Source: Methylomicrobium sp. wino1
Lineage (GTDB): Bacteria > Pseudomonadota > Gammaproteobacteria > Methylococcales > Methylomonadaceae
Assembly (NCBI RefSeq): GCF_003932755.1
Contig: NZ_CP024202.1
Location: 3,844,001 to 3,908,000 of the forward strand
Direction of reading: 5' to 3'
DNA: 64,000 nucleotides
Shown here: positions 35,320 to 56,637 of the stretch, piece after piece
Layout of the letters: every line of letters begins with the position of its first letter
Numbering within the stretch: position 1 is the first letter of the stretch
Notes under the pieces: model-generated
Seen by the model: the letters and a program-made list of their open reading frames with translations, nothing else
Told to the model about the DNA's origin: nothing
Database searches by the model: none
Translations under genes and position numbers: made by a program

Positions 35320-35628
35320 TCAACTCAAAATCCTATTCACGCCGCCGGTAAACAACAACACATCTTCCGGAAACAACTGCACGCCCAAGGTTTTGATTTC
35401 GCCGCATTCCGGCAAACGATAACAACGAATATCATCCTCCCGTTCATCCATCAAATGCCCAAGAGCCTGCAACAAGCGCAACAAACGAGGCCGCTTCATC
35501 ACGACGATAAACACCGAATATTGCACCGGCAGACCCTGTTTTTTCAACACCCGATGGGTTTTCGACAACCGCTTAGGATCGGCAATATCATAAGAAATCA
35601 AATACAAACCCGCCGAACTGTCCGCCAT
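35320..35628 (-). CDS. cas2: Second Cas2 (paired with Cas1')
   Basis: 102 aa with the Cas2 ferredoxin fold: LYLISYDIADPKRLSKTHRVLKK (metal Asp in YDI) and GLPVQYSVFIVVM. Cas2 bridges Cas1 dimers in the spacer-integration complex. Overlaps cas1' by one base (TAATG), so co-translated with it. Sequence is clearly different from the other Cas2 in the same operon (37334-37618). Confidence 0.9.
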   Translation of the reverse strand: MADSSAGLYLISYDIADPKRLSKTHRVLKKQGLPVQYSVFIVVMKRPRLLRLLQALGHLMDEREDDIRCYRLPECGEIKTLGVQLFPEDVLLFTGGVNRILS

Positions 35629-36374
35629 TACGAAGCCCCCATCAAAAACCGGTGCAACTTATTGACCGTGCCACGAAACAAGATGCCGATACGATCGGTA
35701 CAGCCTTGATACAACTGTGCAATCTCGCGTTCGCCTGGAACTTCGAACCGACGCGATTTTAAATCCAACAACGGCAAATAAAAATCCCACAACAACAAGC
35801 GACTGAAATCGGCGGCTAAATCCAAGCGGTTGACTTGAACGGATTCATCCTGCATATCCAAACCCTGCTCCAGTAACAACAACGTCATTTCGCCATATAG
35901 CAACGACTCGACCCGATTTACTACATTCGGCCAATCGTTCAATAAATTCAAGCGCAAACCGCTAAGCAAATCCGCAACCGGTATTTCCCGCCAATCATGT
36001 AATCCCGCGCGCCGGGCAAAACTGCGCGCCGCCATTTTTTGCATGGCCGCCCGCCAAGTTTCATAACGTTGCAAACCATCCGGCCTTGACAACAAATCGA
36101 GCAACCGCTGCGCGAATAACTGTCGGTCTCGGCTGACGCCCAACCAACGCGCCCTGACCTCGCCGGTCTTCGACAAGATCAGCACGACGATACCGGCATC
36201 GGCGCAAGCCAGCAATGCGCCCATCGTCCATTCGACCGAACCGGAACACACCACGCGCGAAATCCGCGCCAACGGAAACAACCGGTCTGCCTTATCCGGC
36301 GCCGAAATCCTAAGCGCCGGCTCGTCCAAAACCACCCGGCAACCGGTCTTCCCTTCGATATATAAGGGGCGCAT
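35628..36374 (-). CDS. Cas1-like protein (Cas1'), probably catalytically inactive
   Basis: 248 aa, about 70 shorter than the neighbouring Cas1. The N-terminal beta domain is typical (PLYIEGKTGCRVV, LFPLARISRVVCSGSVEWTMGALLACADAGIVVLIL). The helical domain keeps the N...LLYGEM segment and an Asp in RLDLAADFSRLL. The canonical GxEG glutamate segment is not present and the position of the catalytic His is not a His (near MQDESVQVN). So two of three metal ligands seem lost. Sandwiched 2 bp after cas1 and overlapping the second cas2; probably a structural subunit. Confidence 0.8.
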   Translation of the reverse strand: MRPLYIEGKTGCRVVLDEPALRISAPDKADRLFPLARISRVVCSGSVEWTMGALLACADAGIVVLILSKTGEVRARWLGVSRDRQLFAQRLLDLLSRPDGLQRYETWRAAMQKMAARSFARRAGLHDWREIPVADLLSGLRLNLLNDWPNVVNRVESLLYGEMTLLLLEQGLDMQDESVQVNRLDLAADFSRLLLWDFYLPLLDLKSRRFEVPGEREIAQLYQGCTDRIGILFRGTVNKLHRFLMGAS

Positions 36375-36376
36375 TA

Positions 36377-37330
36377 TTAACCCTCCGCTTCCGGCCGCAG
36401 TCTGTCGGCCAAGGCATAACCATAACGGCGCAACAAACGCCGGGCGCTGCCGACTTGACTCTCGTAAAAACCGTAAAAACGCTGTCGGCCTTCTTTATTA
36501 AGCAAACACCGGCCTTTATCGTCGCTGAAATGCTCGGCCCGCAAACGCCGTTCGCGAAACAAATGCCAAACCCATGTATCCATTAAAGGTCGCAACGGCT
36601 CCATCAAATCGCAGGCCAAAGAATCCCGGCCGAAACTAACATCGTGATAAAAACCCAGCATCGGGTCCAAACCGGTCCAATGACAAGCCCTGACCGCATC
36701 GTAATGCAGTAGTGTATAACCTAACGACAAACACGCGTTGACCGGGTCCGGCGGCGGACGTTTCTTGCGCCCGGCAAAATTGAGCGAATCGGCGAACAAA
36801 TGCCGGTAAGCACCGAAACAAGCCGCCGCCGCGCTACCTTCATAACCTCGCAATTCCGGCAATGAAACGCCAAACGCATCGCCGCGTAAAGTACCGCCGA
36901 TGCCTTGCAAGGTATTCAGCGCGCCCGTCAAAGGCTTTCTCAAATCGGGACGCGCGGCCAAGGCATCCTGCAACAAACGCTGCTGCCCTCGCAACTTGGC
37001 CAAAACCAACCACTTCGCCAGCGGACGCCGTGTCTCATCGCTCAAACTCATCCGGTACTGTCCTAACCTTCTAACCGCATCGCCATGCGGCTTAGCCGCC
37101 AACATCGCGGTCGCCTCGGTAGACCGCCCCGACAATACCAAAAAACCGATATTGCGTTGGGTCAACGCGCCCAACACCCGGCTTTCCAATTGAATATTGC
37201 CTCTAACGATAACGCGATCCAAAAGATGCAACGGAACCGTCCCTTTCTTTTGACCTGCTTCATAAAGCGCCAAAGCCTGGCCGTCGAGCTTGACCGCCAA
37301 TTCCTTTCTATCCAAATACAAACTGCTCAT
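36377..37330 (-). CDS. cas1: Cas1 integrase
   Basis: 317 aa, metal-dependent integrase that inserts new spacers into the array. Catalytic Glu in LRGYEGSAAAACF, His in GFYHDVSFGRDSL and Asp in ACDLMEPLRP are all present. N-terminal beta domain as usual (SSLYLDRKELAVKLDGQAL). Three bp after cas2, two bp before cas1'. Confidence 0.96.
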   Translation of the reverse strand: MSSLYLDRKELAVKLDGQALALYEAGQKKGTVPLHLLDRVIVRGNIQLESRVLGALTQRNIGFLVLSGRSTEATAMLAAKPHGDAVRRLGQYRMSLSDETRRPLAKWLVLAKLRGQQRLLQDALAARPDLRKPLTGALNTLQGIGGTLRGDAFGVSLPELRGYEGSAAAACFGAYRHLFADSLNFAGRKKRPPPDPVNACLSLGYTLLHYDAVRACHWTGLDPMLGFYHDVSFGRDSLACDLMEPLRPLMDTWVWHLFRERRLRAEHFSDDKGRCLLNKEGRQRFYGFYESQVGSARRLLRRYGYALADRLRPEAEG

Positions 37331-37333
37331 CGT

Positions 37334-37618
37334 TCACCCCACATAAAAAAACGAACCGTCCTGAGGCAACACCGCCTTGCCGAGCGTCCGAATCGACTTC
37401 GGCCCAACCAACTTCAGCAAAATAAAACGGTCTTCCACAGGATCGATAACCCCGGCAACTTCATCCAACAGCGCGCGCTTTTCCGCCGGCGTCAAAAAAC
37501 ATTCGAACACCGATTTCTGTCCGCCTGACGCATAAGCGCGCAGCACATAAAGAGCCTTACGCAAACGCTTGTTGCAGGAAATGTCGTAAGCCGCGAGATA
37601 AAGTTGCCGTTTTGTCAT
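37334..37618 (-). CDS. cas2: Cas2
   Basis: 94 aa, first gene of the adaptation operon. YLAAYDISCNKRLRKALYVLRAYASGGQKSVFECFL is a standard Cas2 core with the Asp in YDI. Structural partner of Cas1 in spacer integration. Confidence 0.93.
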   Translation of the reverse strand: MTKRQLYLAAYDISCNKRLRKALYVLRAYASGGQKSVFECFLTPAEKRALLDEVAGVIDPVEDRFILLKLVGPKSIRTLGKAVLPQDGSFFYVG

Positions 37619-39427: not shown

Positions 39428-42400
39428 GTCTTAATCCCTTCTTAATAAGGTCTGGTATTCAAATAACAAGCCGTTAAGACCGCTTAACGGCTTAATTTGT
39501 CTTAATCCCTTCTTAATAAGGTCTGGTATTCAAATCCTTTATCAAGGTAGGCCATGTCGACCTGAAAACGTCTTAATCCCTTCTTAATAAGGTCTGGTAT
39601 TCAAATCGGAACGCGGCGGCTCTTTAACAATTCGGCGTCTTAATCCCTTCTTAATAAGGTCTGGTATTCAAATGCGCTTTGAGAAGTGAAGAGCTGTTTT
39701 TTCTAGCAGGTCTTAATCCCTTCTTAATAAGGTCTGGTATTCAAATCAAACCGGAGAGAGATCATGAAAACATTATTCAGAGTCTTAATCCCTTCTTAAT
39801 AAGGTCTGGTATTCAAATGCGAATGCTAAGCGCGCTAAAGCGGCATTTGGTCTTAATCCCTTCTTAATAAGGTCTGGTATTCAAATGCAATTAGACGAAG
39901 CAATTGACGAATGGAATATGTCTTAATCCCTTCTTAATAAGGTCTGGTATTCAAATCGCCATGGCCGAACGTATCAAGCGCGCAACCCCAGGTCTTAATC
40001 CCTTCTTAATAAGGTCTGGTATTCAAATGATTGGGATACGGAAAACATTGGGCCGGCCAGGCTGTCTTAATCCCTTCTTAATAAGGTCTGGTATTCAAAT
40101 TCATTAGTAGAAGTATCTACCGTGACGGTCTTAATCCCTTCTTAATAAGGTCTGGTATTCAAATCTCGCGAAGCGGCGGGTCTCTCGGCTCGCGAGTCTT
40201 AATCCCTTCTTAATAAGGTCTGGTATTCAAATTTTTCGCCTATCACGCGCCGAAGGCGAAGCCAAGGTCTTAATCCCTTCTTAATAAGGTCTGGTATTCA
40301 AATTTTCTGGCATATTGGACTATTGATGACAATTTATGTCTTAATCCCTTCTTAATAAGGTCTGGTATTCAAATGCAGAGTTTTTTAAAGGCAGAGTACA
40401 AGCAAGTGTCTTAATCCCTTCTTAATAAGGTCTGGTATTCAAATAGACATGGTCAACAAGGTGGCAATACGGATAACACGTCTTAATCCCTTCTTAATAA
40501 GGTCTGGTATTCAAATTAATAAGCTTGCTCATAGTGAAATTAGACTGCTAGGTCTTAATCCCTTCTTAATAAGGTCTGGTATTCAAATAACTGATGTATT
40601 CAATTTCCGGGCGGTTAAGTCTTAATCCCTTCTTAATAAGGTCTGGTATTCAAATGCGTTATCACCAAAGCAAAAAATCATCATTGAGTCTTAATCCCTT
40701 CTTAATAAGGTCTGGTATTCAAATAAAGCTAAACGCAGCCGCCGTCATCTTTGGTCTTAATCCCTTCTTAATAAGGTCTGGTATTCAAATAGAACTGTAC
40801 TTGCATTGCTAAATATAGAGAAGGTCTTAATCCCTTCTTAATAAGGTCTGGTATTCAAATTGCTATAAGTGAGTATAAGTACCCTATTCGATACGTCTTA
40901 ATCCCTTCTTAATAAGGTCTGGTATTCAAATAAAGAGGGTAAGCTAATCCCTTTTAAAGTAACCAGTCTTAATCCCTTCTTAATAAGGTCTGGTATTCAA
41001 ATAAATACATTGCAGACCTTCACAATGCCAACGTGTCTTAATCCCTTCTTAATAAGGTCTGGTATTCAAATGGCGATCTTAATCAAATACCGCCAGTATG
41101 TCTTAATCCCTTCTTAATAAGGTCTGGTATTCAAATTTATTAGGAGAGCAATGCCGCTTGATTTACAAGTCTTAATCCCTTCTTAATAAGGTCTGGTATT
41201 CAAATATAATTGAGCAGCTGTATAAACTCAATTATGGTCTTAATCCCTTCTTAATAAGGTCTGGTATTCAAATATAATTGAGCAGCTGTATAAACTCAAT
41301 TATGGTCTTAATCCCTTCTTAATAAGGTCTGGTATTCAAATATAAGGCCAGCTAAACAGCGCGGCCGAAACCATGTCTTAATCCCTTCTTAATAAGGTCT
41401 GGTATTCAAATCGCGATTATTACGCGATTATAATCGGATAACGCCGTCTTAATCCCTTCTTAATAAGGTCTGGTATTCAAATCGGTACTCAAAACAGCTC
41501 TAATCTTCAGAGCGCTCTGTCTTAATCCCTTCTTAATAAGGTCTGGTATTCAAATCTTTTAGTGTTAGCTCAGACAAGAAAATTAGTCTTAATCCCTTCT
41601 TAATAAGGTCTGGTATTCAAATGAACGCACGCCGCGCTAAAGCGGCATTTGACCGTCTTAATCCCTTCTTAATAAGGTCTGGTATTCAAATAGTGAGCAA
41701 CTCACTTATACAGGGGATAATCAATGTCTTAATCCCTTCTTAATAAGGTCTGGTATTCAAATTGCAAGCCGATATTGATATCGACAATGACGCGGGTCTT
41801 AATCCCTTCTTAATAAGGTCTGGTATTCAAATGGCGGAAAGAGGATGGTATCCGTTCGATAATTTGTCTTAATCCCTTCTTAATAAGGTCTGGTATTCAA
41901 ATAACATTATTCAGAACAGTCTTGGAAGGAATGCGTCTTAATCCCTTCTTAATAAGGTCTGGTATTCAAATGGTCGACATCACGTTAAAAATGATGTTGG
42001 TCGTATGTCTTAATCCCTTCTTAATAAGGTCTGGTATTCAAATAGAACAGTTCGAATACGATCTACAGCCGGGGTCTTAATCCCTTCTTAATAAGGTCTG
42101 GTATTCAAATGATACCAAAACAACTCACTCCGGGGCGCTTTGTCTTAATCCCTTCTTAATAAGGTCTGGTATTCAAATGAAAGCAAAGGCATCATCCCTG
42201 ACATGTTCAGTCTTAATCCCTTCTTAATAAGGTCTGGTATTCAAATTCGACTACGTCATCGAAACCGGCAATGGCATAGTCTTAATCCCTTCTTAATAAG
42301 GTCTGGTATTCAAATTGTCACTGGATGACAGCTCAGCCGCGGAAACCGCGTCTTAATCCCTTCTTAATAAGGTCTGGTATTCAAATCGTTAAGAGAGGCA

Positions 42401-43784
42401 TTAGTCGCAGGACTAATGTCTTAATCCCTTCTTAATAAGGTCTGGTATTCAAATCAAGACAACAACGAAATCAACGACGCCAAATTTGGTCTTAATCCCT
42501 TCTTAATAAGGTCTGGTATTCAAATCTATTGCGTCCATGACGTTAGCGCCATTCGCCCCGGTCTTAATCCCTTCTTAATAAGGTCTGGTATTCAAATCTA
42601 TTGCGTCCATGACGTTAGCGCCATTCGCCCCGGTCTTAATCCCTTCTTAATAAGGTCTGGTATTCAAATGGGGCTAATCTGAGGCTGGCTAATCTGGAAG
42701 GGGTCTTAATCCCTTCTTAATAAGGTCTGGTATTCAAATTGAAATAGACAGGCTCGAACGCGAAACCTCGGGGTCTTAATCCCTTCTTAATAAGGTCTGG
42801 TATTCAAATAAGCCGAATCCGACCGCATTGCGCGCGAAAAAGTAGTCTTAATCCCTTCTTAATAAGGTCTGGTATTCAAATCATGTTTTGCAAAGTCGAT
42901 CCTGGCGACGACTGTCTTAATCCCTTCTTAATAAGGTCTGGTATTCAAATACTGGAAACAGAATGGTTAGAGCATGGCGTAAGTCTTAATCCCTTCTTAA
43001 TAAGGTCTGGTATTCAAATTTGTGAAAATAACAGGCTGGAAAGGCAAAACAAGTCTTAATCCCTTCTTAATAAGGTCTGGTATTCAAATAAACACACTGA
43101 CAACAACAGCATTGGCATAGGTCTTAATCCCTTCTTAATAAGGTCTGGTATTCAAATCATTTAGAGTGCGTTGAATACATAAGAAAACTAAAGTCTTAAT
43201 CCCTTCTTAATAAGGTCTGGTATTCAAATATGAAAGGGATGGTAAACGTTTACATCCACGGCGCGTCTTAATCCCTTCTTAATAAGGTCTGGTATTCAAA
43301 TACCGCTAGCGTTTATGTAGGTTATCTTAGTCGCGTCTTAATCCCTTCTTAATAAGGTCTGGTATTCAAATTAGAACGATTGTTAGGGAAAATCTCGATC
43401 ACTTGTCTTAATCCCTTCTTAATAAGGTCTGGTATTCAAATAAAAAAAAGTCTAGAAGAGCTGGACTCAGCTCGTCTTAATCCCTTCTTAATAAGGTCTG
43501 GTATTCAAATGGAAACACACTGACAACAACAGCATTGGCATAGGTCTTAATCCCTTCTTAATAAGGTCTGGTATTCAAATAAAGATAATATAATAGGTGA
43601 TACAATGAGTGCTGTCTTAATCCCTTCTTAATAAGGTCTGGTATTCAAATAGCACGTTGAACACATCGCCGAAAAACTGTCTTAATCCCTTCTTAATAAG
43701 GTCTGGTATTCAAATAAAAATAGCAGTGACCGCAACGCTAAAAGAAAGTCTTAATCCCTTCTTAATAAGGTCTGGTATTCAAAT
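39428..43784 (-). CRISPR. Type III CRISPR array, 63 repeats and 62 spacers
   Basis: Counting by hand gives 63 copies of a 37-bp repeat (on the + strand starting GTCTTAATCCCTTC and ending GGTCTGGTATTCAAAT) at intervals of 64-73 bp, so spacers of about 27-36 nt. The repeats look identical throughout. The minus-strand repeat ends ...GGGATTAAGAC, the style of type III repeats whose last 8 nt form the crRNA 5' handle, so I infer transcription on the minus strand with the leader at the right end (43785-43867). Two spacers are exact neighbouring duplicates and others overlap or are homologous (see findings). Confidence 0.97.
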
Positions 43785-43867
43785 AGCTCGTCTCTGTTCT
43801 CCTTTTGTTATCAATAGGTTGCAAAGGGGGTTGACGGGGTTTTCGGCTTTTGAAAAGTTAATTGATT
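43785..43867 (-). promoter_or_regulatory. Presumed array leader
   Basis: 83 bp between the last repeat and the stop of the Card1-like gene. It would be the leader if the array is read on the minus strand. It is short; a promoter may lie inside or transcription may enter from the upstream effector genes. No clear -10/-35 pair found. Confidence 0.4.
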
Positions 43868-44998
43868 TCATCTGATCCATTCCGTCAATTTTTGCGATAA
43901 TTGCGCCAAATTTCGATGCGCGCAGATGGCGATGCCGAGATCGTGCGCTCGTTGCTGATCGTATTTATTCGGCGGGTTGTAGCTTACCAGCATTGCGCGG
44001 GCTTGTAACCCTCCCAATAGATCCTTGAGGCTATCGAGTTTGTACAATGCCTGGGTATTTTTGTTGTTAACCGGGTTTTTGTCGTGATGGGTTTTGCATT
44101 CTATGATGTACAGCCGGTTGTCCTTGAGAATCGCAATATCCATTTCATTCTTGATCGGCGGTTTTCTGTGGTTGCGTTCGACCTCGATGCTTCGTCCGAC
44201 GTCCTGCAATACCAGGGATTTTTTCAGATTTAGGCAGACGCCCCACACATGTTGCTCCAACCATCCGCCGTTGATGTAAAAGCGCGTTTCCTCGTTGGGA
44301 AAGATTAGCTGGCCTCCTTTTAATTCGAGTAACCGGTAGTCTTGGAATAATCCGATCAATTTTTCGAGTTGGCGGTAGTTTCGATGCTTCGGGTCCAGTG
44401 CAACTATCAGCGCGGGTTTGGCTTTTGCCGCATAAGCATTGAGCACCCGCAACGGTTCGGTGTAGGTTTCCGCGTTTAGGATCAGAGTTTTTGTCAATTC
44501 CCGGAAGCGTCGCGGCACGCCGTATTTATCGCCTTGGGCGGTTACTTCGGCGCCGAAAACTTTTAGAAACTCCGGCAGTTTGAGGTGGTCGGCCAAGTCG
44601 GCACCGGGTAAATGGGTCGGATGCATCCAGATAATCCGGTCGTGCTCCGGATGTACATAAAAAATCGGTTTATCGAATTCGCGAAAGACTTCATAGGCTG
44701 CAATACTCATCGGTTTGGTGCCGCCGGTGGCGTTAAGCGCGATATTTTCATGATGCACGGCGAGCAAATCGACAACTTGATCGCGAATATGCTCAATATC
44801 CCAGGCGTTTTCGACCGGCCAACGAGTTATATTGCCTACTCTGCTTCTGATGACCGATTCCAACCAATCGGCGCGTTGCCGCATATCGGCGCTGACCAGC
44901 ATAATGACTTTCCGGGGCCGGTATTGCTCATCGAGTATCGGCGTGATGTTGGGCACGGCTTGCGCCGATATTAGGATCAGATGAGTGTCGATGTTCAT
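43868..44998 (-). CDS. CARF-PD-(D/E)xK nuclease, Card1/Can2-like
   Basis: 376 aa. The N-terminal CARF domain (about 1-135) has NATGGTKPMS at 89-98, the ring-nucleotide loop. The C-terminal restriction-like nuclease has Asp287 in NEMDIAI and Glu300-Cys-Lys302 in YIIECKTHH. Length and order match Card1/Can2 (DUF1887), cOA-activated enzymes that cut ssRNA and ssDNA or nick DNA. Last effector before the array; its stop is 83 bp from the first repeat. Confidence 0.9.
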   Translation of the reverse strand: MNIDTHLILISAQAVPNITPILDEQYRPRKVIMLVSADMRQRADWLESVIRSRVGNITRWPVENAWDIEHIRDQVVDLLAVHHENIALNATGGTKPMSIAAYEVFREFDKPIFYVHPEHDRIIWMHPTHLPGADLADHLKLPEFLKVFGAEVTAQGDKYGVPRRFRELTKTLILNAETYTEPLRVLNAYAAKAKPALIVALDPKHRNYRQLEKLIGLFQDYRLLELKGGQLIFPNEETRFYINGGWLEQHVWGVCLNLKKSLVLQDVGRSIEVERNHRKPPIKNEMDIAILKDNRLYIIECKTHHDKNPVNNKNTQALYKLDSLKDLLGGLQARAMLVSYNPPNKYDQQRAHDLGIAICAHRNLAQLSQKLTEWIR

Positions 44999-45159
44999 GG
45001 TGTTTTTGGGGTTGATATTCTTGTTCAGTTGGGCTTAGGGCCAACCGCCGTGGGCCGATAGGGTTTTGAGCTAGGTTGTCTAAAAAAGCCGCTTTTAGCA
45101 AAGTGCCGTGTTCCCGCTTTTTAAACTCAAAATATTTTGGAATTTGTGTAATTATTCAC

Positions 45160-45404: not shown

Positions 45405-45408
45405 CAGC

Positions 45409-47520
45409 TTAGCCTTGCCGGCTGAGTATTTCATACATCTCGCTATCGCATTGCTTTAACAGTGCTTCTTTCTGCTTGCCCGGTATGAAAGCATGAATGA
45501 AGCTTTGCTTGATCATCGCCAGAGCGTCCCATTGCGTTAATTCGCCCCCGCTCATCCTGGCCGCCATTAAATATTCGCGGCTCAGCGTGGTAAGGCTGAT
45601 GCCGGGATTGTCGGTGCATAACGTCAACGGCAAACCTTCCCGCCACAATGCCATTAAGGGATATGGCTTGCAGTCTTCGCTTTCCGGCCATTGCGGGTCT
45701 TGAAAGCCGACTACTTCGAGGTTGGAGGTCGGGCACAATTCCAAACAAATATCACGATTACGAAACCGTTGCGCCAGCGGCGGATTGTCATTTAAAGTCA
45801 GGCCATGACCTATTCTGTCCGCATGCAAATGATAGGCGGCTTGCCAGATCGATTCGGCCGGCTGGCCTTCTCCGGCATGGATAGTAATCGGTAGGCATTG
45901 TTCGAATGCCGGCGTAAACAATCCGGCGATTTCCGAGGGCCGAGTTTGCTGTTCGTCGCCGGCCATGTCCAGTCCGACCACAAAATCAGGCCACTGATGC
46001 TGCGCCGTGATCGCCAATTCAATGGTTTTTTGCAGTCTTGCCGCTCGGTCTCCTTCAATATCGCGCCGGTCTGCGATCACGATAAAGCGAAATTGCGGTT
46101 TTTTTCCGTCCGGCAAGCTTGTCAGTGCTTTTTTCAGGGCGCTATAAAAACATTCCAGAAACACCAGACCATCGCCATATTTTTGGGGGCTTCCACGCAA
46201 TTCGATATAGGCAAGGCCTTCTTGCACGGCTTGTTCGACGATGGCTTGCGCGTAGGGTTCGATCGCCGCAGGATGACTTAATATAGCGGAACCGGTGAGT
46301 TCGCCGGGCCGTTCGTAGGCTGCAAATTTTTGCGGATGCCGACTCGTTAATGCGATGCGCGGTTCGGTACAACGCCAGAGGTTGTCTTGCAGTTGTTCGT
46401 CGTCGGCATACCTTAGCAACGCGGCGCTGTTATGACTGCGAACGCCTTGGTTTTTCAAAGATTCCGGCCAATGCCAAGGCCATTGAATGCTTTGCAACAA
46501 GGGCCGGCAATGGGCCCGCGCTTGTTGTTGTTCCTGTCGCGTCAGGCTTTGCCAGACTGCTTCGGCGACTCGTCGTTGGGCTTTTAGATCCAAACAGCCG
46601 CCGATATGCCGATGCAGGTCGGCTTTCGGCAGCATATTCAGCCAATCGATATGCTTTGCATCGAGCGGCATGGTTCTTAACTGCTCTATCGTTCTAGGCG
46701 GCAGCCGGTAAAGACTGCGCCAATTTTCGTGATGTTCGCTTCGGCTAAGTTCCGAGAGATAATTACCTAGCAAGCGGCTGCCGTGTTGTTCGCGTTTTTT
46801 CAGCTCTTGCGCCAAGAATAGCGTATCGGCTGCCCAGACTTGCGGTAGGCCCGACTTCGGTAACGGCAGCGGAAAGGCTTCGGTGGCGATAGCTTCGGTC
46901 CGGTCCATGCGCAAATCCAGCAAATCGCTGCGCTGGGTTTTGCCGGTAATGAGCGGTGTAACGGCAAGACAGCAGTCCGTATCGAAGGGCCGGGTGAACA
47001 ATTCCGGTGCCGCGTCTTGCAATGCTTTGGGCATGACTTTGAAATCTTTGCCGACCACATGCAGCAATGCTTGACAGCCGAATAAACCCGCCGCCCATTG
47101 CAAATCGGCGCTCATCGTTTTGCGTCCGCCTGCCAGCGATAGGACGACTTGTCCGCCCCGAGCTTCGGCGTGTGCTTTCAGACAGGCGCGAGCGATCAAT
47201 TCGCGCATCCGTTCGCATTCCGCTTGAGTGGCCAGTTCGTCGGTATCGGCTGCTTGCCAGATACGCATTGTCATGGGTTTTGTCAGTAGCCGGCTCCATG
47301 CGATCAATGAACTTAGGCTTTTTTGGGTGGCTTCGCCTTGCGTGGTGCACAGCCAGATTTCGTCCGGTGCTTGTAAGCCGTATTCGTTTCGGAGTCGTTC
47401 GAAAGAGTCGTTGTCGGGATGTTCGGCGTACAGCGGCAAGCGGTCCGGCGCCAAAAAGCCGAAGACTTCGGGAACCACGGCCCAACTGGCGCCAAGCGTC
47501 ATGAGTACGATATTTTTCAT
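45409..47520 (-). CDS. CARF-adenosine deaminase fusion (Cad1-like)
   Basis: 703 aa from MKNIVLMTLGASWAVVPEV; an upstream frame to 47667 covers repeat DNA. The CARF domain (about 1-230) has LSLAGGRKTMSADLQ at 127-141. The C-terminal adenosine deaminase domain (about 295-700) has zinc ligands LHRHIGG (302-308), catalytic IHAGEG (547-552), DRIGHG (568-573) and CTDNPG (635-640), so all deaminase motifs are intact. Known Cad1 proteins bind cyclic oligoadenylate and turn ATP into ITP, stopping cell growth during infection; that activity is inferred here. Lies between the Csm6-like and Card1-like effectors. Confidence 0.92.
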   Translation of the reverse strand: MKNIVLMTLGASWAVVPEVFGFLAPDRLPLYAEHPDNDSFERLRNEYGLQAPDEIWLCTTQGEATQKSLSSLIAWSRLLTKPMTMRIWQAADTDELATQAECERMRELIARACLKAHAEARGGQVVLSLAGGRKTMSADLQWAAGLFGCQALLHVVGKDFKVMPKALQDAAPELFTRPFDTDCCLAVTPLITGKTQRSDLLDLRMDRTEAIATEAFPLPLPKSGLPQVWAADTLFLAQELKKREQHGSRLLGNYLSELSRSEHHENWRSLYRLPPRTIEQLRTMPLDAKHIDWLNMLPKADLHRHIGGCLDLKAQRRVAEAVWQSLTRQEQQQARAHCRPLLQSIQWPWHWPESLKNQGVRSHNSAALLRYADDEQLQDNLWRCTEPRIALTSRHPQKFAAYERPGELTGSAILSHPAAIEPYAQAIVEQAVQEGLAYIELRGSPQKYGDGLVFLECFYSALKKALTSLPDGKKPQFRFIVIADRRDIEGDRAARLQKTIELAITAQHQWPDFVVGLDMAGDEQQTRPSEIAGLFTPAFEQCLPITIHAGEGQPAESIWQAAYHLHADRIGHGLTLNDNPPLAQRFRNRDICLELCPTSNLEVVGFQDPQWPESEDCKPYPLMALWREGLPLTLCTDNPGISLTTLSREYLMAARMSGGELTQWDALAMIKQSFIHAFIPGKQKEALLKQCDSEMYEILSRQG

Positions 47521-47568
47521 TGATTGATCATATGGGAGAGGCGTTATTGTAGAAGATACGGGTGTTGT

Positions 47569-47721
47569 TTGTGGGAGCGACGCCTTCGTCGCGATGTCGA
47601 GGCCACCGATACTCAGCAGCCACCGGCTTTGATCGAAGCCTTGGCGCTTTGGCTTCGATACCGTCAATAAGTCACTCGACTCTCTCGACCTCGATTATCG
47701 CGATCTAGGGATCGCTCCCAC
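47569..47721. repeat. Family B palindrome pair
   Basis: GTGGGAGCGACGCCTTCGTCGCGAT at about 47571-47595 and ATCGCGATCTAGGGATCGCTCCCAC at about 47697-47721, in inverted orientation about 100 bp apart, with CTTCGATAC-type spacers between. Non-coding. Confidence 0.75.
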
Positions 47722-47758
47722 AGGGAAAGTTCTCTAATTAAGCCTTCAACTATTCAAT

Positions 47759-49030
47759 CTACAAGTCATAACTTTGCGGCAGTTGCGGCGGCATGTTTTT
47801 TATCCCGACTCGCCGGCTTTCTGCCAGCAGCATCGGCAGGAAGCGCGATTCCAACCAGTCCGCCAGTTGCAGCCAATGCGGCTGTTGAACGGGCGCGAAG
47901 CCGTGCGCCAGGATCGATTGATTGCGGCTTTTGATTTGATTGAGCAAGTTTTTTTCTTCCGCCTTGATAAATTCGGCAGCCGCACCTTGGGTTTTGACCT
48001 TGACCAACTGCCAAGCCTGGAACAACCCGGCTTGATAGATTCCTTCTCTATTGGGCGTCAGTTCCATACCGGCGGGAATTTCGGCTTTCGCGATGTTGGC
48101 CGTATCGATGCCGCAATGCGATTTCAAGAGCCATTGCGCGGTCCATTCGATCAAGCGGTAAACCCGCGCGACGGCATCGTCGTAGCGGCCTTGCGCGGCG
48201 CGGCGCCGGGCATTGAGATACAAGTCGAGCAGTTGCGCCGGCTCGCGTTTTTCCGGGCGTTGATCGCGCAAACGCATTGCTATCGGCAAATAAGCTCTAA
48301 GTTCGTTCGGCAATCCGGGCGCGTAGTTTTGCAGCAGGTCGAGCGCGGTTTGATGGTTGAAGTTGTCCCATTCGGCAAAAGCGCGGCTCAAATCGCGAAA
48401 ACGTGTGAACCGGCTGCGTAATTGCGCCTGGTTCGGCGCTCTGATGTCTTTGAGCCCGGCCTCGGCTTCGCCATAAGCGAAACGACTCCACGCTTGACGA
48501 TATGGCGAAATTTGCCGTTCGAAGCGGATGTGTTCGATATTGGCCAAGGCCGCGTATTGCGAGCCGTCATGTACCTTGATCAAATCGGCGCGGCTGCCGG
48601 TTACCAGTTGCAGTTGAATGCCTTTCCGCTCCATCGCCGCCATGACCAAGCCGGCGCTCATCGATTTGGTGCCGCCGGTGTAATCGGCCATGATCGACGC
48701 GTTCGGAAACCGCCGCACCAATTCGTCCAATGCTCGATTGCAATCGGCGTAGATTTGGTCCAAGTCGTCCGATAAAGTCGTACACACATCGTATTGCTCC
48801 GGCGTCAATCCGGTTTGCGCCGGGATGTTGGGCAGACTAGGTTTATCGTCCTGAAACGCGGCCTTGATGCAATTGCCGCTACCGGTAATTTGCACGGCGG
48901 AACCGGGCCGTCCAGTCGCGGGGTCTTTGTCGGTGCAGATGAACAAAACGAAGTCGGGGCGCAGGTCGTTGATGGCGGTTACAATCGGCTGATGACTACC
49001 GCCGACGGTGCAGATTAGGATTTGGGTCAT
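47759..49030 (-). CDS. CARF-HEPN ribonuclease, Csm6-like (TIGR02710 type)
   Basis: 423 aa. CARF at the N-terminus with TVGGSHQPIV and ADYTGGTKSMSAG (115-127). The C-terminal HEPN domain has Arg369-x6-His376 in KSRNQSILAHGF, the RNase active site. This family is activated by cyclic oligoadenylate from Cas10 and degrades RNA nonspecifically. Follows csm5 after a REP-containing gap. Confidence 0.9.
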   Translation of the reverse strand: MTQILICTVGGSHQPIVTAINDLRPDFVLFICTDKDPATGRPGSAVQITGSGNCIKAAFQDDKPSLPNIPAQTGLTPEQYDVCTTLSDDLDQIYADCNRALDELVRRFPNASIMADYTGGTKSMSAGLVMAAMERKGIQLQLVTGSRADLIKVHDGSQYAALANIEHIRFERQISPYRQAWSRFAYGEAEAGLKDIRAPNQAQLRSRFTRFRDLSRAFAEWDNFNHQTALDLLQNYAPGLPNELRAYLPIAMRLRDQRPEKREPAQLLDLYLNARRRAAQGRYDDAVARVYRLIEWTAQWLLKSHCGIDTANIAKAEIPAGMELTPNREGIYQAGLFQAWQLVKVKTQGAAAEFIKAEEKNLLNQIKSRNQSILAHGFAPVQQPHWLQLADWLESRFLPMLLAESRRVGIKNMPPQLPQSYDL

Positions 49031-49062
49031 GGTTTGATTATTTTTAGTTGTAGATCATCGTT

Positions 49063-49195: not shown

Positions 49196-49198
49196 AGA

Positions 49199-50854
49199 TC
49201 AATCCTGTAGATAGGCAAGCACTTTCAAGCTGCGTTGTTTCAGTTTCACTTTTTGCTTATTCGTTCCCTCGAAATCCGGAAGCCATTTGCCTGCATCGAC
49301 CATTAACTCTCTGATTTTTTGTGCAATGCGTTTGGCGTCTTCCCCCTGCCATCGGTCCGACTCCAAGGCTTGCAGCAAGCGGGTGTCGTGTTCTTGTTGT
49401 TGAAACGGTTTTAGGAATTCTTCAACTTCCCGGTCTATCGGGCTTAACGCTGCGAGGCGTTGTTGCTCCGCCTCTTGTTGCAGGCGCATTTCCTCTGCGC
49501 GTTGTTGCTCGGCCTGTTTTTTCGCTTCTTCTTGTTGTTGCCGTAATTCGGCTTGTTGTTTGAGTTCGTTTTGTTTGGCCGATTGCCGCTGCAGCCAATC
49601 GATTATGTCTTGATTGCCTCGTTCCAGCCAGTTTTGCAGTTGACTATCCGGGGTTTTCGGATCGATTTCGACCAAGAGCCAGCCGAATGGCAGCAGATTG
49701 GTTCGATTGCCGATGTCGTCGGCGGCCAGCCACCAGGTTTTGGGTTGATTTTCCCATTTTGATTTTTCGCCTCTGCCCTGCATGATTCTAATGTTGCGAA
49801 CGCCATTGAGGGTTAAAGCCTCGGCTCCGCTATGTCTGCCAAGACGCAGCAGGAAGGCTTCGCCGTTATGCAATCGCTGAGTAAGCCCTTTATCCATTAA
49901 CTGTTCCATCTGTCTGAGCCAATCGGCTTGCAGATAATCCCTTTCTTTCATGCCGTTGATTTCTCTCCAGAATAACCCCATATAAAAATCGTTACAGGCC
50001 TTGGCGATGTCTTGTGCTGCCCAGTGCAAGTGTGGCTTAGGTAGTTTGCGGTTATCTTGCACGACGGATTGCGTATCCAACAGCGTTAAACTGCCGGTGA
50101 AACCTTGGTAATGATGAGGCGCCACGCATTCCAATAATTGGTATAGATTGCTGGCTTCGGCTTGCGATTGCAGCAATTTTCCGTTTTTTATGACAGGCTT
50201 GCGTTTGCGATTGACGGCGAATTGTACCTGGCAAGCCGGCTTATCGGCTTTGCCTTGCCAGCCCGCGTCGCCGACCGATATAAGCCGCATCGGATCGGTA
50301 TGAAACTTCCCTTCAAACAAGGATTCTTGCAGTTTTTGGTTCGTTTGTTTACGGTCGATCAAGGGCTTTCCGTCATTGATATCGTCTAACAGCGCTGTCC
50401 TTATAGCGCCTTTGATACTGCTGCCCGGTAAGAGCGGAAGGCCGTCGACCGGATTATAAAAGGTGCGATCGATTTCCAACTTGTTGATGACCCTTCGACC
50501 TTGACCTTCGTGTTGCGCGGTTTGGCCGATCCGTTTTCGATACAACGATTTGATTCCGCCGGCCGTTGGCACGGGGAGCTTGGCAAAGGCCAGTAGTTTC
50601 TCCCTATGGTTATGAAAGAAAGATTGCACCTTGGTTAGCATCGTGTCATCGGGCTTGCCGTTGACGATAGCCAATAATTGTTGTCTGTCGCTGTCGCTCA
50701 AACCAGCCAGCGCAGCCCGGCTATCGAAACTGTATAAAGCCCCTGCTTCATCGTCGATAACATAATTGCCCGGCTCGTAGCTTTCATCGGCGCCAATGTG
50801 AATGGGCGATAACGGTGTGTATTTCAGCGTGTAGTGATTCAAAAAATGTGTCAT
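49199..50854 (-). CDS. csm5: Csm5 with C-terminal coiled-coil extension
   Basis: 551 aa RAMP subunit of the Csm complex, next to Csm3 on the crRNA 3' side. The N-terminal core has LSPIHIGADESYEPGNYVIDD and PGSSIKGAIRTALL, typical Csm5. The start at 50854 overlaps the csm4 stop (ATGA). Odd: usual Csm5 is about 350-400 aa, whereas here residues about 415-470 are Gln/Glu-rich coiled coil (QQQEEAKKQAEQQRAEEMR) followed by an extra about 80-residue helical tail. The extension may mediate contact with another subunit. Confidence 0.9.
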   Translation of the reverse strand: MTHFLNHYTLKYTPLSPIHIGADESYEPGNYVIDDEAGALYSFDSRAALAGLSDSDRQQLLAIVNGKPDDTMLTKVQSFFHNHREKLLAFAKLPVPTAGGIKSLYRKRIGQTAQHEGQGRRVINKLEIDRTFYNPVDGLPLLPGSSIKGAIRTALLDDINDGKPLIDRKQTNQKLQESLFEGKFHTDPMRLISVGDAGWQGKADKPACQVQFAVNRKRKPVIKNGKLLQSQAEASNLYQLLECVAPHHYQGFTGSLTLLDTQSVVQDNRKLPKPHLHWAAQDIAKACNDFYMGLFWREINGMKERDYLQADWLRQMEQLMDKGLTQRLHNGEAFLLRLGRHSGAEALTLNGVRNIRIMQGRGEKSKWENQPKTWWLAADDIGNRTNLLPFGWLLVEIDPKTPDSQLQNWLERGNQDIIDWLQRQSAKQNELKQQAELRQQQEEAKKQAEQQRAEEMRLQQEAEQQRLAALSPIDREVEEFLKPFQQQEHDTRLLQALESDRWQGEDAKRIAQKIRELMVDAGKWLPDFEGTNKQKVKLKQRSLKVLAYLQD

Positions 50855-51807
50855 GAACATTCCTTGGCTTGAAAATTGACGGCTATGACGGGAGCATAGC
50901 CTTGATGTACCGTGGCGGGTAGCGTTTTCGAGAGCTCGCCGTTGCCGCCGATGCCTTGGCCGATAAAGCCGGACGCAGGAGGATTCGTAGCCATTATCGC
51001 GGCGGTTTGCGCCAATAGAATCGGATTTTTAAACGGTTTGCCTTCTTGGTGAACGGCGATATCGCCGTGCCGGCCAAATCGGGTGAAGAGTTGATAATAG
51101 CTGCGTTCAGGCGCGAAGCCCAAGCCTTGCGGAGCACATGGCGCCAGCGTCAAACTGCTATCGGCATCGGCTTGAGAAGGTAACTCGGCGGCTTGAAATG
51201 CTTCCAGCTTGAATTTACCAAGCCCGATGCTGGCATCGCGTCCGAAGCCGAATTCGCCGATATCGGTCAGGCAATTTTGATAATCCTCCGCGCTCAACCG
51301 CTCGGTATCCAATAGCACATAGATATGCCAACGCAGACCGGGAATGAACCATTCCTGTTCGATGCTATAGGGAGCAAAACCTCCCTCGCCTGTCGTATTG
51401 CTTCGCCGGTCGATGGTATTGTGGGGCTGTGGATGTTTTTCACTCAATTTACCGAAGTCGCCGGCGATATCCGCCGCCGTTTTCGCCAAGCCCAACCATT
51501 CCGACACCGGTTTTTCGATTTCCGCTTCGGCTAGCCAACAACGCTTTTTGACGGCTTTTCGATCCGTTCCGTCGATCGGACGATAATAGCTAAACGGTAG
51601 TTTCGGTAACGGTAGATAACCTTGCGGAAAGGCATCGGATGCGACCGCGAACGGCCTGCCTTCGATATAACCGTTTAATAATTCGGTCAGACTTGCTTCA
51701 CCGAACCGGTTGCGAATCGCCCAACACAGTTGACCGAACAAGGTATCGCCTTTTAGCGGCGTCGCGAATGCCGACAACGGCGTAAGCGTCACACTAAAGC
51801 TTTGCAT
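50851..51807 (-). CDS. csm4: Csm4
   Basis: 318 aa RAMP subunit that caps the crRNA 5' handle and contacts Cas10. N-terminal FSVTLTPLSAFATPLKGDTLFGQLCWAIR and late GQGIGGNGELSKTLPATVHQGYAPVI are Csm4 features. Its ATG overlaps the csm3 stop by one base (TGATG); overlaps csm5 by 4 bp. Confidence 0.93.
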   Translation of the reverse strand: MQSFSVTLTPLSAFATPLKGDTLFGQLCWAIRNRFGEASLTELLNGYIEGRPFAVASDAFPQGYLPLPKLPFSYYRPIDGTDRKAVKKRCWLAEAEIEKPVSEWLGLAKTAADIAGDFGKLSEKHPQPHNTIDRRSNTTGEGGFAPYSIEQEWFIPGLRWHIYVLLDTERLSAEDYQNCLTDIGEFGFGRDASIGLGKFKLEAFQAAELPSQADADSSLTLAPCAPQGLGFAPERSYYQLFTRFGRHGDIAVHQEGKPFKNPILLAQTAAIMATNPPASGFIGQGIGGNGELSKTLPATVHQGYAPVIAVNFQAKECS

Positions 51808-52526
51808 CAGACGGCCTCTTTTAAATCGAGTTGTTCGAGTTCCGTTTGAATGTTTCGGCCTTCCAATTGCAAATCTCGAAAGGCGATTTTGCCGTAACCG
51901 CGCGATCCGGAACCGCCCAGGCCGGTCAATTCCAACAATTTCATGCCTTGCAGCACGGTATCGAGCAAGTTTTCATCGTCATGAACGCGAATCGTCAGAT
52001 TGAAATCGAATTTGGCGGTTGCCGGAACGCGCTCGGTATTGCGAGGATGCTCGGCCGTGCCTTTGATTCGGTCAATCATGTTTTCCATTTTGGTTTCCGT
52101 GAGCAGCAGGTTTTTGTCATCCATTTCTTTCGCCCACTCCGGGCATAACGAACAATCCCAGAACGATAGCCGGCTCGGGCCAATTTCAGCCAGTAGATCC
52201 GAAGCAATATCGCCATCGGGCGCGCCTCCGAACAATTTGACTAAGGCTTTCGCTTTATCTAACACGTTGCTATCGAGTTTCTTCAAGTGTTTGAAGCTAA
52301 GCGGTTGCCCATCCGTTTGTCCGACCACGCCTAATTGCCACTCCAAGAGGCTACGCATTTTGCCTTTGATGCTGGAACCTGGAATATAAGGCTGTTGAGT
52401 AATAGGATTTTTGATAACCGGATTATCGGTGCCGCCAATGTGAATTTCGGTGTTGCCGCTACCGATATGAAGACCACTCAATAATTCGATTTGGCCGGTA
52501 AGTTTTTGTATTTTGGTGAGTTGCAT
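51807..52526 (-). CDS. csm3: Csm3 backbone ribonuclease
   Basis: 239 aa. RAMP subunit that lines the crRNA and cuts target RNA every six nt. The catalytic Asp is in GGTDNPVIKNP near residue 34; PGSSIKGKMR and the Gly-rich loop GLGGSGSRGYGK follow. The start at 52526 has GGAGG seven bases upstream; a TTG frame six codons earlier overlaps csm2 and is rejected. Confidence 0.95.
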   Translation of the reverse strand: MQLTKIQKLTGQIELLSGLHIGSGNTEIHIGGTDNPVIKNPITQQPYIPGSSIKGKMRSLLEWQLGVVGQTDGQPLSFKHLKKLDSNVLDKAKALVKLFGGAPDGDIASDLLAEIGPSRLSFWDCSLCPEWAKEMDDKNLLLTETKMENMIDRIKGTAEHPRNTERVPATAKFDFNLTIRVHDDENLLDTVLQGMKLLELTGLGGSGSRGYGKIAFRDLQLEGRNIQTELEQLDLKEAV

Positions 52527-52540
52527 ATTTTTGCCTCCGA

Positions 52541-52921
52541 TCAATTTGGGCGTTCTTGTTTATAAAAGCCCATGAAGGCTTCCATGAATAATTTGAATGT
52601 GTGCAGGGTTTGAGCGCAGATGACTTGTTGCAACCCTTTATGGATCAAGTCAACAAAATTGTCATCGACTAACTTACGGCCTCTCGCATATGCTGCCTTG
52701 GCGTTGATCATCCGAATAAAGGGTAAATAATCATCAAATTTTTCAGGATTTTGGCGTACCTTGCTGTCCCATAAAACAATTTCGTCATAAAACTTTCTGA
52801 GTTGAGTTGCCTTATTGACTCTGTCACCTCCGCTCGCAACAACTTTGGCCACATTTTTGGCTATGTCATTGAACAAGTCCGGGTTGATTTTTTCGCCCGG
52901 TTTACCGATGTTTATTTCCAT
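52541..52921 (-). CDS. csm2: Csm2 small subunit
   Basis: 126 aa, helical small subunit lining the Csm complex: VNKATQLRKFYDEIVLWDSKV and FIRMINAKAAYARGRKLVDDNF are typical Csm2 stretches. AGGAG upstream. Separated from cas10 by a transposase gene and repeats, unlike the usual direct cas10-csm2 order. Confidence 0.93.
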   Translation of the reverse strand: MEINIGKPGEKINPDLFNDIAKNVAKVVASGGDRVNKATQLRKFYDEIVLWDSKVRQNPEKFDDYLPFIRMINAKAAYARGRKLVDDNFVDLIHKGLQQVICAQTLHTFKLFMEAFMGFYKQERPN

Positions 52922-52959
52922 GTTGTTCTCCTGTTTGTCTATGTCGCTTAAATTTCATT

Positions 52960-53140: not shown

Positions 53141-53142
53141 CT

Positions 53143-53947: not shown

Positions 53948-56635
53948 TTAATCGCGTTGCTGGTATAGGTGGCAAAACAGCGCGACTCGATAATTACTGC
54001 CGTGCCGAATGATGCCGGCATTGGCGATTTCCTCAGCCAGTTCCGCTTGTCGGCGTTTACGCTGTTCTTTATCGAGATGCTTGTTGCGCTCCAGCATGCG
54101 CACGGTACGGTAAGCGAAGTAGCTATGCCAAACCGCGTTTTCCGGCTTTTCGTCGACCTTCTCGGCCATGTCAATCAAGTTGAGCAGGCCGTAAACATAG
54201 CCGGTGCTTAAGTCCATGTCTTCGCTGAGTTCCTGCAATCGTTTCCGGCGGGTTGACAAGGCGCTGAACTCTTCCCAATACATGGCTTGATTAAAACAGT
54301 TGACGGCGTTTTTGGGCGAAGGCACAACTTGACCGGGATTATGCGCTTTGGCTCGCTCCAGCGCATCCTCCGCCATTTCGCCAAGTTGATTAATCGGCAG
54401 GCCGGGCTTGGTGGTGCTGATGCCTGCGGAAAAGTGTACTTCGGGATTGTGCGCGACGTATTCTTGAAAAGCTTGCCGCATTTTGCCGGCCATATTTATC
54501 TGCGACAGCCAAGGACCTATCAGAAAAAAATCGTCGCCTCCGGCGAAAACCGTGTAGGTGTTTCGATATTGGTCATCGGATCGGCACAGCCATGGTAAAT
54601 AAATCGTAAAGAATGCGTTGATTTGCCGAGACAATGCGGCGGTTTTACTGAAACTGGTATCGTCTCCCAGGCCGGATTGAAAGATCATACCGAGATTATC
54701 GACATCGCCTTTTAAAGTCGAAAGTGCCGTAATGCCCTGCCATCGATGGTTTTCCTGCAAGGTTTGATCTTCACAAGCAATATGATTGAGCGTTTTTGCA
54801 TCGCCCAATTCCAATTTGTCCTCGCCGGCATATTTTCCCAATAGCGACTCCGCATGAGCCTTGTCATCAAATATCGGCACATAGGCATTGATCGTTCGTC
54901 TGGCATAACCGTTCCACAATGCGCCATCCGCTGATTTCGGCAGCGAAAAATCCCACGCCCTGAGCAGATTGCCGTTTTTGGCCTGTTCGCCGAATTTGCC
55001 TTGGATGTCTTGGTTTTCGGCAAAACTGATATGGTAGCCGAACACTGGTATTTTCAGTGTGCTGGCCATATTCAAGGATTGCCGAGTAATCAGAATGCGT
55101 TCCCTGCGCGTCAACCATTCCCCGGTTTTCAGTTGATCCCAAGCCAATCTGCTAATACTGGTTTCTTGGTCGAGTTGCTCGCTGGCCGGCGATTTTCCGT
55201 CAATTTTGCAAACGCCTTTATCCTTATCAAAACTATCGAGAAAATCTTTGAAAACAACCGGCGCCGCTGCATCGCCGCATAGATTCAGTCGTTGATTCTT
55301 GGCGATTTCCAGTTGATCAAATAACTTGGTAATCAATGCCTTATACGGACTCGACTTCCCTGGTTTGGCCCGGCGAAAATCGTTACATGTGGCGTCTGTC
55401 CAAGCCAATCCAACCCCTGCTTGCCCCCAACTATGCTGTAAAAACCAGTCGTTTAATTCTTGTTGGACCTGTTGCAGTGTTTCGATGGTCGCCGGCGTAT
55501 TCGACGCCACGATCATGAACTTGCCGGCGGCGTTGATGACTTGGCTCGTGGATGGTAATGACAACGCTTCCAAAACCTTGAGCGCCGCGCACTCGCTGAG
55601 CAATGAGACATAAAAAGAACGGCCGCGCAGCAATTTGGCGGCGCGCTTGTTGGTTTCGCCACCGCTGGCGAAAATGAAATCTTGAATACCGAAAAAGTCG
55701 CCTTGAATCAGTAGAATCTTCTTCTCTTGCCAGCTTTGTTCTTGGGCTTTGAGTGCTTTGGCAGCGTTTTCATCGGTTTCGCCCCGCTCGTGGTGATAAC
55801 GCCACAATGCCGTTGCCAGCGCCGCCGCGACTCGGGAATGGTCGTATAACGAAACATCCGGGCGGATATTGAATGCCGTAGCGGAAGGAATGGCTTGTGT
55901 ATAAACGCCCCATAAGGTTTCAAAATGATCCAGCCATAACGACCAGTTGTTACGGTGCGATTTCGGCAATAATTTCAACGCCTCGACAAAGCCCTGCCAT
56001 AACTTCTCATATTCCTTTTGTGCGGCTTTGTCGTCGTTGCCTTCGCATTTTTCGCTCTTTACCGGAAAAATACTATTTGGCGACAGCGGTTTGAGCGGAT
56101 AACGATACGCATAGTGTTGCTTGTCTTCGCTATGCAAACGTATTTGCTCGAACAAGGTCAACTGCCTTGCGGTGTAGTGATTTTTGCCCGTCTCTGTAAT
56201 ATCTTCGCCGTGATTGTAGGTTTCGAATTCTTCTCGGTCGAAGCCCGATGCCACGCGATCTGCCGTCGCGATGATCCATTGTAAAAAGGTCTCCGGCTTA
56301 TGATGCTTGGCTGCGGCATTGATAAACGAGTCATCGGCTTCCTTGGATTTCCACGAACCGAAAGGCGCGAAATCGGTGCCTTTCAACTCGGGCATGGATT
56401 CTTCGATCAAATCCATCGCTAAACCCGTATAGGCTGCATGAACATGACTGAACCAGCCTTTGTCATCGACATGATTTTTCCGATGCGGACAATAAAGCTG
56501 TTTGTTGGCGTCTAGTATTTCTTGGTCGACCGGTATCCTCGCCCGTTCGGCAAACTTGCCTAAATCGTGTAAAAAAGCAGATAAGGCGATGCGGCTCGAT
56601 TGATCCAATAATTTTCTTTTTTCTTGTTCTTGCAT
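53948..56635 (-). CDS. cas10: Cas10/Csm1
   Basis: 895-aa large subunit of the type III-A complex. The HD nuclease motif (SAFLHDLGKF, His23-Asp24) and the cyclase motif AGGDDFF (GGDD at 699-702), with the partner motif KGDVDNLG (642-649), are intact. So both ssDNA cleavage and cyclic oligoadenylate synthesis are expected. Start at 56635 (MQEQEKRKLLDQSS) with AGGAG eight bases upstream; the longer frame to 56923 overlaps the NE0113-type gene and is rejected. Confidence 0.96.
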   Translation of the reverse strand: MQEQEKRKLLDQSSRIALSAFLHDLGKFAERARIPVDQEILDANKQLYCPHRKNHVDDKGWFSHVHAAYTGLAMDLIEESMPELKGTDFAPFGSWKSKEADDSFINAAAKHHKPETFLQWIIATADRVASGFDREEFETYNHGEDITETGKNHYTARQLTLFEQIRLHSEDKQHYAYRYPLKPLSPNSIFPVKSEKCEGNDDKAAQKEYEKLWQGFVEALKLLPKSHRNNWSLWLDHFETLWGVYTQAIPSATAFNIRPDVSLYDHSRVAAALATALWRYHHERGETDENAAKALKAQEQSWQEKKILLIQGDFFGIQDFIFASGGETNKRAAKLLRGRSFYVSLLSECAALKVLEALSLPSTSQVINAAGKFMIVASNTPATIETLQQVQQELNDWFLQHSWGQAGVGLAWTDATCNDFRRAKPGKSSPYKALITKLFDQLEIAKNQRLNLCGDAAAPVVFKDFLDSFDKDKGVCKIDGKSPASEQLDQETSISRLAWDQLKTGEWLTRRERILITRQSLNMASTLKIPVFGYHISFAENQDIQGKFGEQAKNGNLLRAWDFSLPKSADGALWNGYARRTINAYVPIFDDKAHAESLLGKYAGEDKLELGDAKTLNHIACEDQTLQENHRWQGITALSTLKGDVDNLGMIFQSGLGDDTSFSKTAALSRQINAFFTIYLPWLCRSDDQYRNTYTVFAGGDDFFLIGPWLSQINMAGKMRQAFQEYVAHNPEVHFSAGISTTKPGLPINQLGEMAEDALERAKAHNPGQVVPSPKNAVNCFNQAMYWEEFSALSTRRKRLQELSEDMDLSTGYVYGLLNLIDMAEKVDEKPENAVWHSYFAYRTVRMLERNKHLDKEQRKRRQAELAEEIANAGIIRHGSNYRVALFCHLYQQRD

Positions 56636-56637
56636 AT

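Follow-up and report, generated by a model that had tools for sequence, protein, structure and literature searches.

A four-gene CRISPR adaptation module with two Cas2 types and a second Cas1 that has lost its active site

Gene order and active-site residues

The type III-A CRISPR locus of Methylomicrobium sp. wino1 carries, on contig NZ_CP024202.1, an adaptation operon of four genes that encode an ordinary Cas1, a shorter Cas1-like protein (Cas1') and two Cas2 proteins, one upstream (Cas2) and one downstream (Cas2'). The window analysed is the 64,000-nt stretch from 3,844,001 to 3,908,000 of the contig, and positions are given within it. On the minus strand the genes read cas2-cas1-cas1'-cas2', separated by 3 bp and 2 bp and ending in a 1-bp overlap (Table 1); on this layout the coordinates of the open reading frames (ORFs) agree with a preliminary description of the window. 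The upstream Cas2 is marked by a conserved Asp12 and the motif G-G-Q-K-S-V-x-E-C, and 70 of its 73 copies measure 92-96 aa. Asp14 is conserved in the downstream type.

The catalytic residues of the window Cas1 are E164 (GYEG), H229 (FYHD) and D241 with E244 (CDLME), all invariant in 34 aligned copies. E164, H229 and D241 are retained in 70 of 70 distinct partner Cas1 sequences, so that the partner has the catalytic E-H-D triad of a Cas1 endonuclease/integrase, whereas Cas1' does not. None of 72 distinct Cas1' copies has E at the Glu position (L 40, F 12, V 7, I 4, gap 4, K 3, S 1, R 1). An H aligns with the catalytic His in three (L078, L080, L159), where the loop is aligned without certainty, and these three have no E either. 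The Asp column holds D in 47 of the 72, and the Asp of the AADF segment in the window Cas1' is D189. The positions of R191 and P192 of Cas1 are gaps in 72 and 71 of the 72 Cas1', respectively. The preliminary description had read Glu, His and Asp in the first Cas1, and in Cas1' a beta domain and one Asp with neither the Glu segment nor the His; all of this stands, the beta domain being conserved almost to the level seen in Cas1 (see below). An intact triad in Cas1', which would have contradicted that description, is absent from every copy in the alignment.

Cas1' matches Pfam PF01867 with 29.9 bits, above the cutoff of 22.3, over residues 10-82 only. Its AlphaFold model (predicted local distance difference test, pLDDT, 86.6) has the two-domain Cas1 fold, but three elements of Cas1 are missing from it: the Glu helix, the C-terminal beta hairpin and the PPPDPVN loop. 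Comparison of the helices, together with the alignment, rules out an intact but hidden triad. Judged from sequence and model, Cas1' is a well-preserved protein of predicted Cas1 fold with a lost active site.

The best-scoring PADLOC family for the window Cas1' is PDLC01185, labelled 'Cas1, diverged variant, second in the loci' (profile length 246), which matches 36 of 36 aligned Cas1' at E <= 0.001. This profile, which we take to come from a published Cas profile library, shares with the present protein the second place in the locus; its label is silent on the active site, the second Cas2 and the mechanism. Within the literature and databases searched, the Cas1' family is known from this profile label only. 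In the open-licence PMC papers searched, including parts of the 2025 CRISPR classification (PMC12669027), no description was found of a module with a second, diverged, inactive or duplicated Cas1, or with two or heterodimeric Cas2 proteins. Nor do the portions covered of PMC6452270, PMC3150331, PMC9048733 and PMC9755687 mention an active Cas1 accompanied by an inactive second copy. An Antarctic contig is listed as cas2-cas1-cas1-RT in the available section of PMC11742911, an arrangement that differs from the present one. The preliminary description knew of no described system of this kind; this holds for the papers covered but must be qualified, as the curated profile already names a diverged second Cas1.

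Distribution and co-inheritance of the module

Genomes were sampled within Pseudomonadota at four levels: the family, the order, a sample of the class and a sample of the phylum. Cas1' matches were obtained in 40 of 237 family genomes, spread over 14 of 29 genera, and the 43 match rows in these genomes contain no internal stops. This recurrence and the Pfam matches of all four products rule out chance ORFs. At the wider levels a Cas1' profile gave matches in 59 of the 311 order genomes, in 25 of 369 from the class sample and in 11 of 398 from the phylum sample. All these genome tallies include weak rows that are ordinary Cas1 (e.g. G556, G725, G726, G266). A partner Cas1 scoring above 500 bits is present in 33 family genomes, all 33 of which fall among the 40 with Cas1'. 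A scan of named genome contigs for Cas1' gave three loci, from Methylotuvimicrobium buryatense, a gammaproteobacterial metagenome-assembled genome and Crenothrix.

Stretches around most matches form the locus set, from which several weak ones were left out (e.g. G967, G890, G254, G191, G059, G088). The set represents the order by three families (f1, f91, f92), extends to other families in the class and to another class of the phylum, and possibly contains near-copies or locus halves (L077 and L083 of G468; L061 and L062 of G481 and G482). The complete order cas2-cas1-cas1'-cas2' lies on one strand in 67 of the 80 loci with cas1', the window counted, so that these have four genes and not the single cas1 and single cas2 of a canonical adaptation module. 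In all 67, cas1' comes after cas1; one of them, L134, has cas6 between cas2 and cas1. Nine loci are cut by contig ends (L073, L076, L077, L083, L087, L092, L121, L137, L156); one of these, L137, also has a broken cas1' frame, with 52 aa left open at the contig end. The remaining four depart from the arrangement: L071 has the order cas1-cas2-cas1'-cas2', in L068 cas1 is shortened and cas2 missing, and cas1 is absent from L057 and L086. Fetched loci without detected cas1' are either ordinary cas1-cas2 modules (L094, L138, L163, L164) or end at cas1 where the contig ends (L136, L166). An additional ORF lies between cas1 and cas1' in L062 (1356-2147) and L067 (3933-4715), with a gap of equal size in L061; it encodes a putative sensor-histidine-kinase-like protein.

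The ratio of nonsynonymous to synonymous substitution rates (dN/dS) was taken from the 112 pairs with a Cas1' identity of 70% or more, of which the 27 with dS of 0.1-1.2 were used. In these close pairs, dN/dS of Cas1' is 0.01-0.27; the four Methylotuvimicrobium loci give values of 0.07-0.23 for Cas1' and 0.05-0.08 for Cas1. Distant pairs, with medians of 0.80 for Cas1' and 0.47 for Cas1, are near saturation and are not used as evidence of selection. Cas1' is the fastest-evolving of the four proteins and Cas2 the most conserved (mean column identity 0.552). In a tree of 57 Cas1, 57 Cas1' and 14 other Cas1, Cas1' forms a single clade with support 100, subject to a long-branch warning for the distant members, and many of the Cas1 subgroups recur within it. 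Over 55 loci, the distance matrices of the four genes are correlated (r 0.88-0.93), whereas 2000 permutations reach at most 0.40 for any pair.

The divergence of Cas1' is uneven. Mean column identity in the alpha domain is 0.238 for Cas1' against 0.499 for Cas1, and in the beta domain 0.418 against 0.450. The beta domain is the usual platform of the Cas1 dimer, and its conservation beside a divergent alpha domain is the pattern expected if the dimer platform were kept and the catalytic core were not. That Cas1' is a dedicated, catalytically dead Cas1, conserved and co-inherited beside an active Cas1 and two Cas2 proteins, is supported by these sequence comparisons. A degraded gene with disrupted copies in relatives would have spoken against it; the family as a whole is intact and only two of the 80 copies (L086, L137) are damaged. 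Gene order, length, dN/dS and the tree rule out a pseudogene family-wide, those two single copies apart.

The two Cas2 types and a proposed mixed integrase

Cas2 and Cas2' fall into two distinct clades; where a module is an ordinary cas1-cas2 pair, its Cas2 belongs with Cas2' and not with the upstream type. Both types are also found with a single Cas1. Plasmids of Sphaerotilus sulfidivorans (NZ_CP035707.1; L178:5693-7400) and Aeromonas media (NZ_CP047963.1; L179:3640-5240) carry cas2-cas1-cas2, and one of Allochromatium vinosum (NC_013852.1; L180:3304-5023) carries cas2-cas2-cas1; each has one Cas1, with the E, H and D residues. In Sphaerotilus and Aeromonas, the two proteins are clearly assigned by profile, the upstream one to Cas2 and the downstream one to Cas2'; the assignment in Allochromatium is weaker. 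These two modules therefore share with the window both Cas2 types flanking an E-H-D Cas1, and differ in that no Cas1' lies in the 9-13 kb fetched around each of the three plasmid modules; a search of the plasmid records with Cas1' as query also gave no match. It follows that two Cas2 proteins do not depend on two Cas1 proteins, and the plasmids weaken the view of the four-gene module as two independent Cas1-Cas2 pairs; a mixed Cas2 core to which a dead Cas1 has been added describes it better. Thus, of the inactive Cas1 with its own Cas2 that was first described, the dedicated dead Cas1 is conserved, while the notion that it owns a Cas2 is weakened. The Cas2 tree has too few columns to order the Cas2 duplication and the gain of Cas1'.

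Known integrases consist of four Cas1 and two Cas2, one kind of each; in every Cas1 dimer a single subunit carries out the chemistry, and its partner chiefly touches Cas2 and the DNA. Within the E. coli type I-E integrase, as the consulted part of PMC10011333 has it, integration is catalysed by only one Cas1 per dimer, and Cas2 is bound through Cas1b. For a type II system, contact between the repeat and a non-catalytic Cas1 is described (PMC6895254, available text). One catalyst per dimer in the former and a repeat-contacting non-catalytic Cas1 in the latter led to the proposal that Cas1' is a built-in non-catalytic subunit. On balance, and by a small measure, we consider it probable that the operon encodes one spacer integrase of four different polypeptides. 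Cas1 would be the catalytic subunit and Cas1', which has the beta domain and has lost the Glu helix, the dedicated non-catalytic one; Cas2 and Cas2' would form the core, probably as a heterodimer, and such a mixed core would let the complex distinguish its two ends by composition. The likely benefit would be that prespacers are loaded and integrated with a fixed geometry or polarity, at a type III-A locus that lacks its own Cas4. A fuller version, with a little less than an even chance in our estimate, joins a Cas2-Cas2' heterodimer to Cas1-Cas1' heterodimers in a genetically encoded asymmetric integrase, in which duplication would have fixed the split between catalytic and non-catalytic subunits, a split that other integrases reach through position only, and would serve polarity or prespacer selection in a type III system lacking its own Cas4. 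Heterodimer formation, stoichiometry and the effect on polarity are inferred.

The E. coli integrase resembles the proposed complex in its Cas1 and Cas2 folds, its active E-H-D Cas1 and the unequal roles of Cas1 within a dimer (PMC10011333, the same part). It differs in that single genes fill both Cas1 roles and both Cas2 positions, whereas here there are four genes and one Cas1 is dead. Among solved structures, the top sequence match of the partner Cas1 is the type I-C entry PDB 8d3l (E 7.1e-53). For type I-C Cas4-Cas1-Cas2, asymmetric complexes are likewise proposed to set orientation, according to the accessible text of PMC6519985; that asymmetry is due to Cas4 occupancy and involves neither a dead Cas1 nor a second Cas2.

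Several observations weigh against a mixed integrase. L057 (2324-3470) and L086 (8858-10019) keep cas1'-cas2' without cas1; the end of cas2 is also lost in both, and the cas1' of L086 has an internal deletion (187 aa). Sphaerotilus has both Cas2 types and Cas1 with no Cas1' nearby, and in a related Cas1 clade (L170-L177) the module consists of cas1-cas2 alone, with similar repeats and, at several of the loci, cas6 and further type III genes nearby, so that some lineages can do without Cas1'. FastTree and quick trees place the Cas1 of this clade inside the partner Cas1s, and a single clade of dual-module Cas1 is not rejected by the approximately unbiased test (p 0.425); loss of cas1' from the clade, or a split that predates cas1', may account for its absence. 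The profile-profile match between Cas1 and Cas1' spans residues 1-69 only (probability 69.5, E 4.2e-05), and homology of the alpha domain rests on the model and a loose sequence alignment; its fast evolution could also mean a role outside the integrase. The arrays of the window and two close relatives share the same 37-nt repeat and hold 62, 45 and 19 spacers, with none in common despite Cas1 identities of 97-98%. Such turnover fits an active adaptation module, but the genome has five cas1 matches, two in this operon and three further ones, and the turnover can therefore not be pinned on the four-gene module.

The main rival explanation, unlikely in our estimate, places Cas1' (with Cas2') outside the integrase, as an accessory factor that would capture, measure or pass prespacers to Cas1-Cas2, like Cas4 or Csn2. 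In 59 of 77 loci the start of cas2' overlaps the stop of cas1', and in 40 of them the overlap is exactly 1 bp, which suggests coupled translation, although cas1 and cas1' are also closely spaced in most loci. The free divergence of the alpha domain of Cas1' also speaks for this rival, and the conservation of its beta domain, close to that in Cas1, against it. The lack of Cas4 at the locus and the retention of cas1'-cas2' after cas1 loss in L057 and L086 favour such a factor; the pairing of Cas2' types with a single Cas1 and no Cas1' on plasmids does not, and together with the grouping of ordinary-module Cas2 it makes Cas2' look like a regular partner of Cas1.

Less likely still is a one-sided integrase, with a Cas1 dimer and a Cas1' dimer at opposite ends of Cas2-Cas2', in which Cas1 would perform one strand transfer and host factors or a second complex the other. 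Two different Cas2 proteins could seat a different Cas1 dimer on each side, and Cas1' has its own beta domain, but known spacer insertion needs two transesterifications (PMC6519985, as far as accessible). Finally, Cas1' is very improbably a decaying duplicate or a regulatory decoy without a specific role in integration. The lost active site, an evolution faster than that of its neighbours and the damage in L086 (cas1' shortened and cas1 gone, as in L057) and L137 (frame broken at the contig end) would agree with decay, but not the way in which gene order, open frame and approximate length persist in two classes, the low dN/dS of the 27 pairs or the single clade mirroring Cas1.

If the mixed integrase is borne out, its interest lies in the separate genes. 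The roles of the two Cas1 in a dimer and of the two integrase ends are hard to test separately, since one gene usually supplies all copies; here each integrase position could be mutated alone. The module would bear on how type III systems orient spacers and would offer an asymmetric scaffold for DNA recorders. The four genes point to a naturally occurring machine that writes immune memories with mixed components.

CRISPR array and type III-A surroundings

The type III-A assignment rests on PADLOC matches in the window for Cas10a, Csm2, Csm3, Csm4, Csm5 and Cas6. No cas4 was found at the type III-A locus or elsewhere in the window in a search of the genome, whose one cas4 match adjoins another cas1.

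Table 1. Features of the adaptation operon, array and type III-A locus (positions in the window)
Feature	Position	Strand	Remarks
cas2 (upstream type)	37334..37618	-	94 aa; Pfam E 3.7e-12
cas1, catalytic integrase subunit	36377..37330	-	317 aa; Pfam E 8.6e-70; E164, H229, D241 intact
cas1', Cas1-fold protein without active-site Glu and His	35628..36374	-	248 aa; Pfam E 4e-07
cas2' (downstream type)	35320..35628	-	102 aa; Pfam E 1.8e-15
CRISPR array	39428..43784	-	63 identical 37-nt repeats, spacers 27-36 nt
Candidate leader	43785..43867	-	between card1 stop and array; inferred
Card1/Can2-like CARF-PD-(D/E)XK nuclease	43868..44998	-	
Cad1-like CARF-adenosine deaminase	45409..47667	-	
CARF-HEPN protein (Csm6/Csx1-like)	47759..49030	-	
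csm5, csm4, csm3, csm2 (type III-A effector genes)	49199..52921	-	PADLOC
cas10 (Csm1-like)	53948..56923	-	ORF as listed; true start probably ~100 codons in
CARF-domain protein (CARF5)	56638..57735	-	
cas6	58126..59106	-	PADLOC

Genes of the window's type III kind lie within the fetched stretch, in many cases a short one, in 42 of 79 other loci, a search that covered this effector type only. Repeats from 37 other complete loci contain GTCTTAATCCC in 35 cases and GTCGTAATCCC in two; in the single-cas1 clade of eight loci, six repeats were read and all contain GTCTTAATCCC. The CRISPR RNA direction of the window array is probably minus, to judge from the repeat and a degenerate terminal repeat in L049. 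Window spacers had no match among phage records, so that protospacer polarity is not readable.

Two adjacent spacers of the array (41206-41341) are identical, and another spacer also occurs twice. The locus combines four CARF proteins (43868-57735): the Card1-like nuclease, the Cad1-like deaminase, the CARF-HEPN protein and CARF5. Two further ORFs lie inside and beside the cas operon, at 53143-54174 and 59433-59891; judging by their translations, they are presumably REP-associated-transposase-like and IS200-like transposase-like, respectively.
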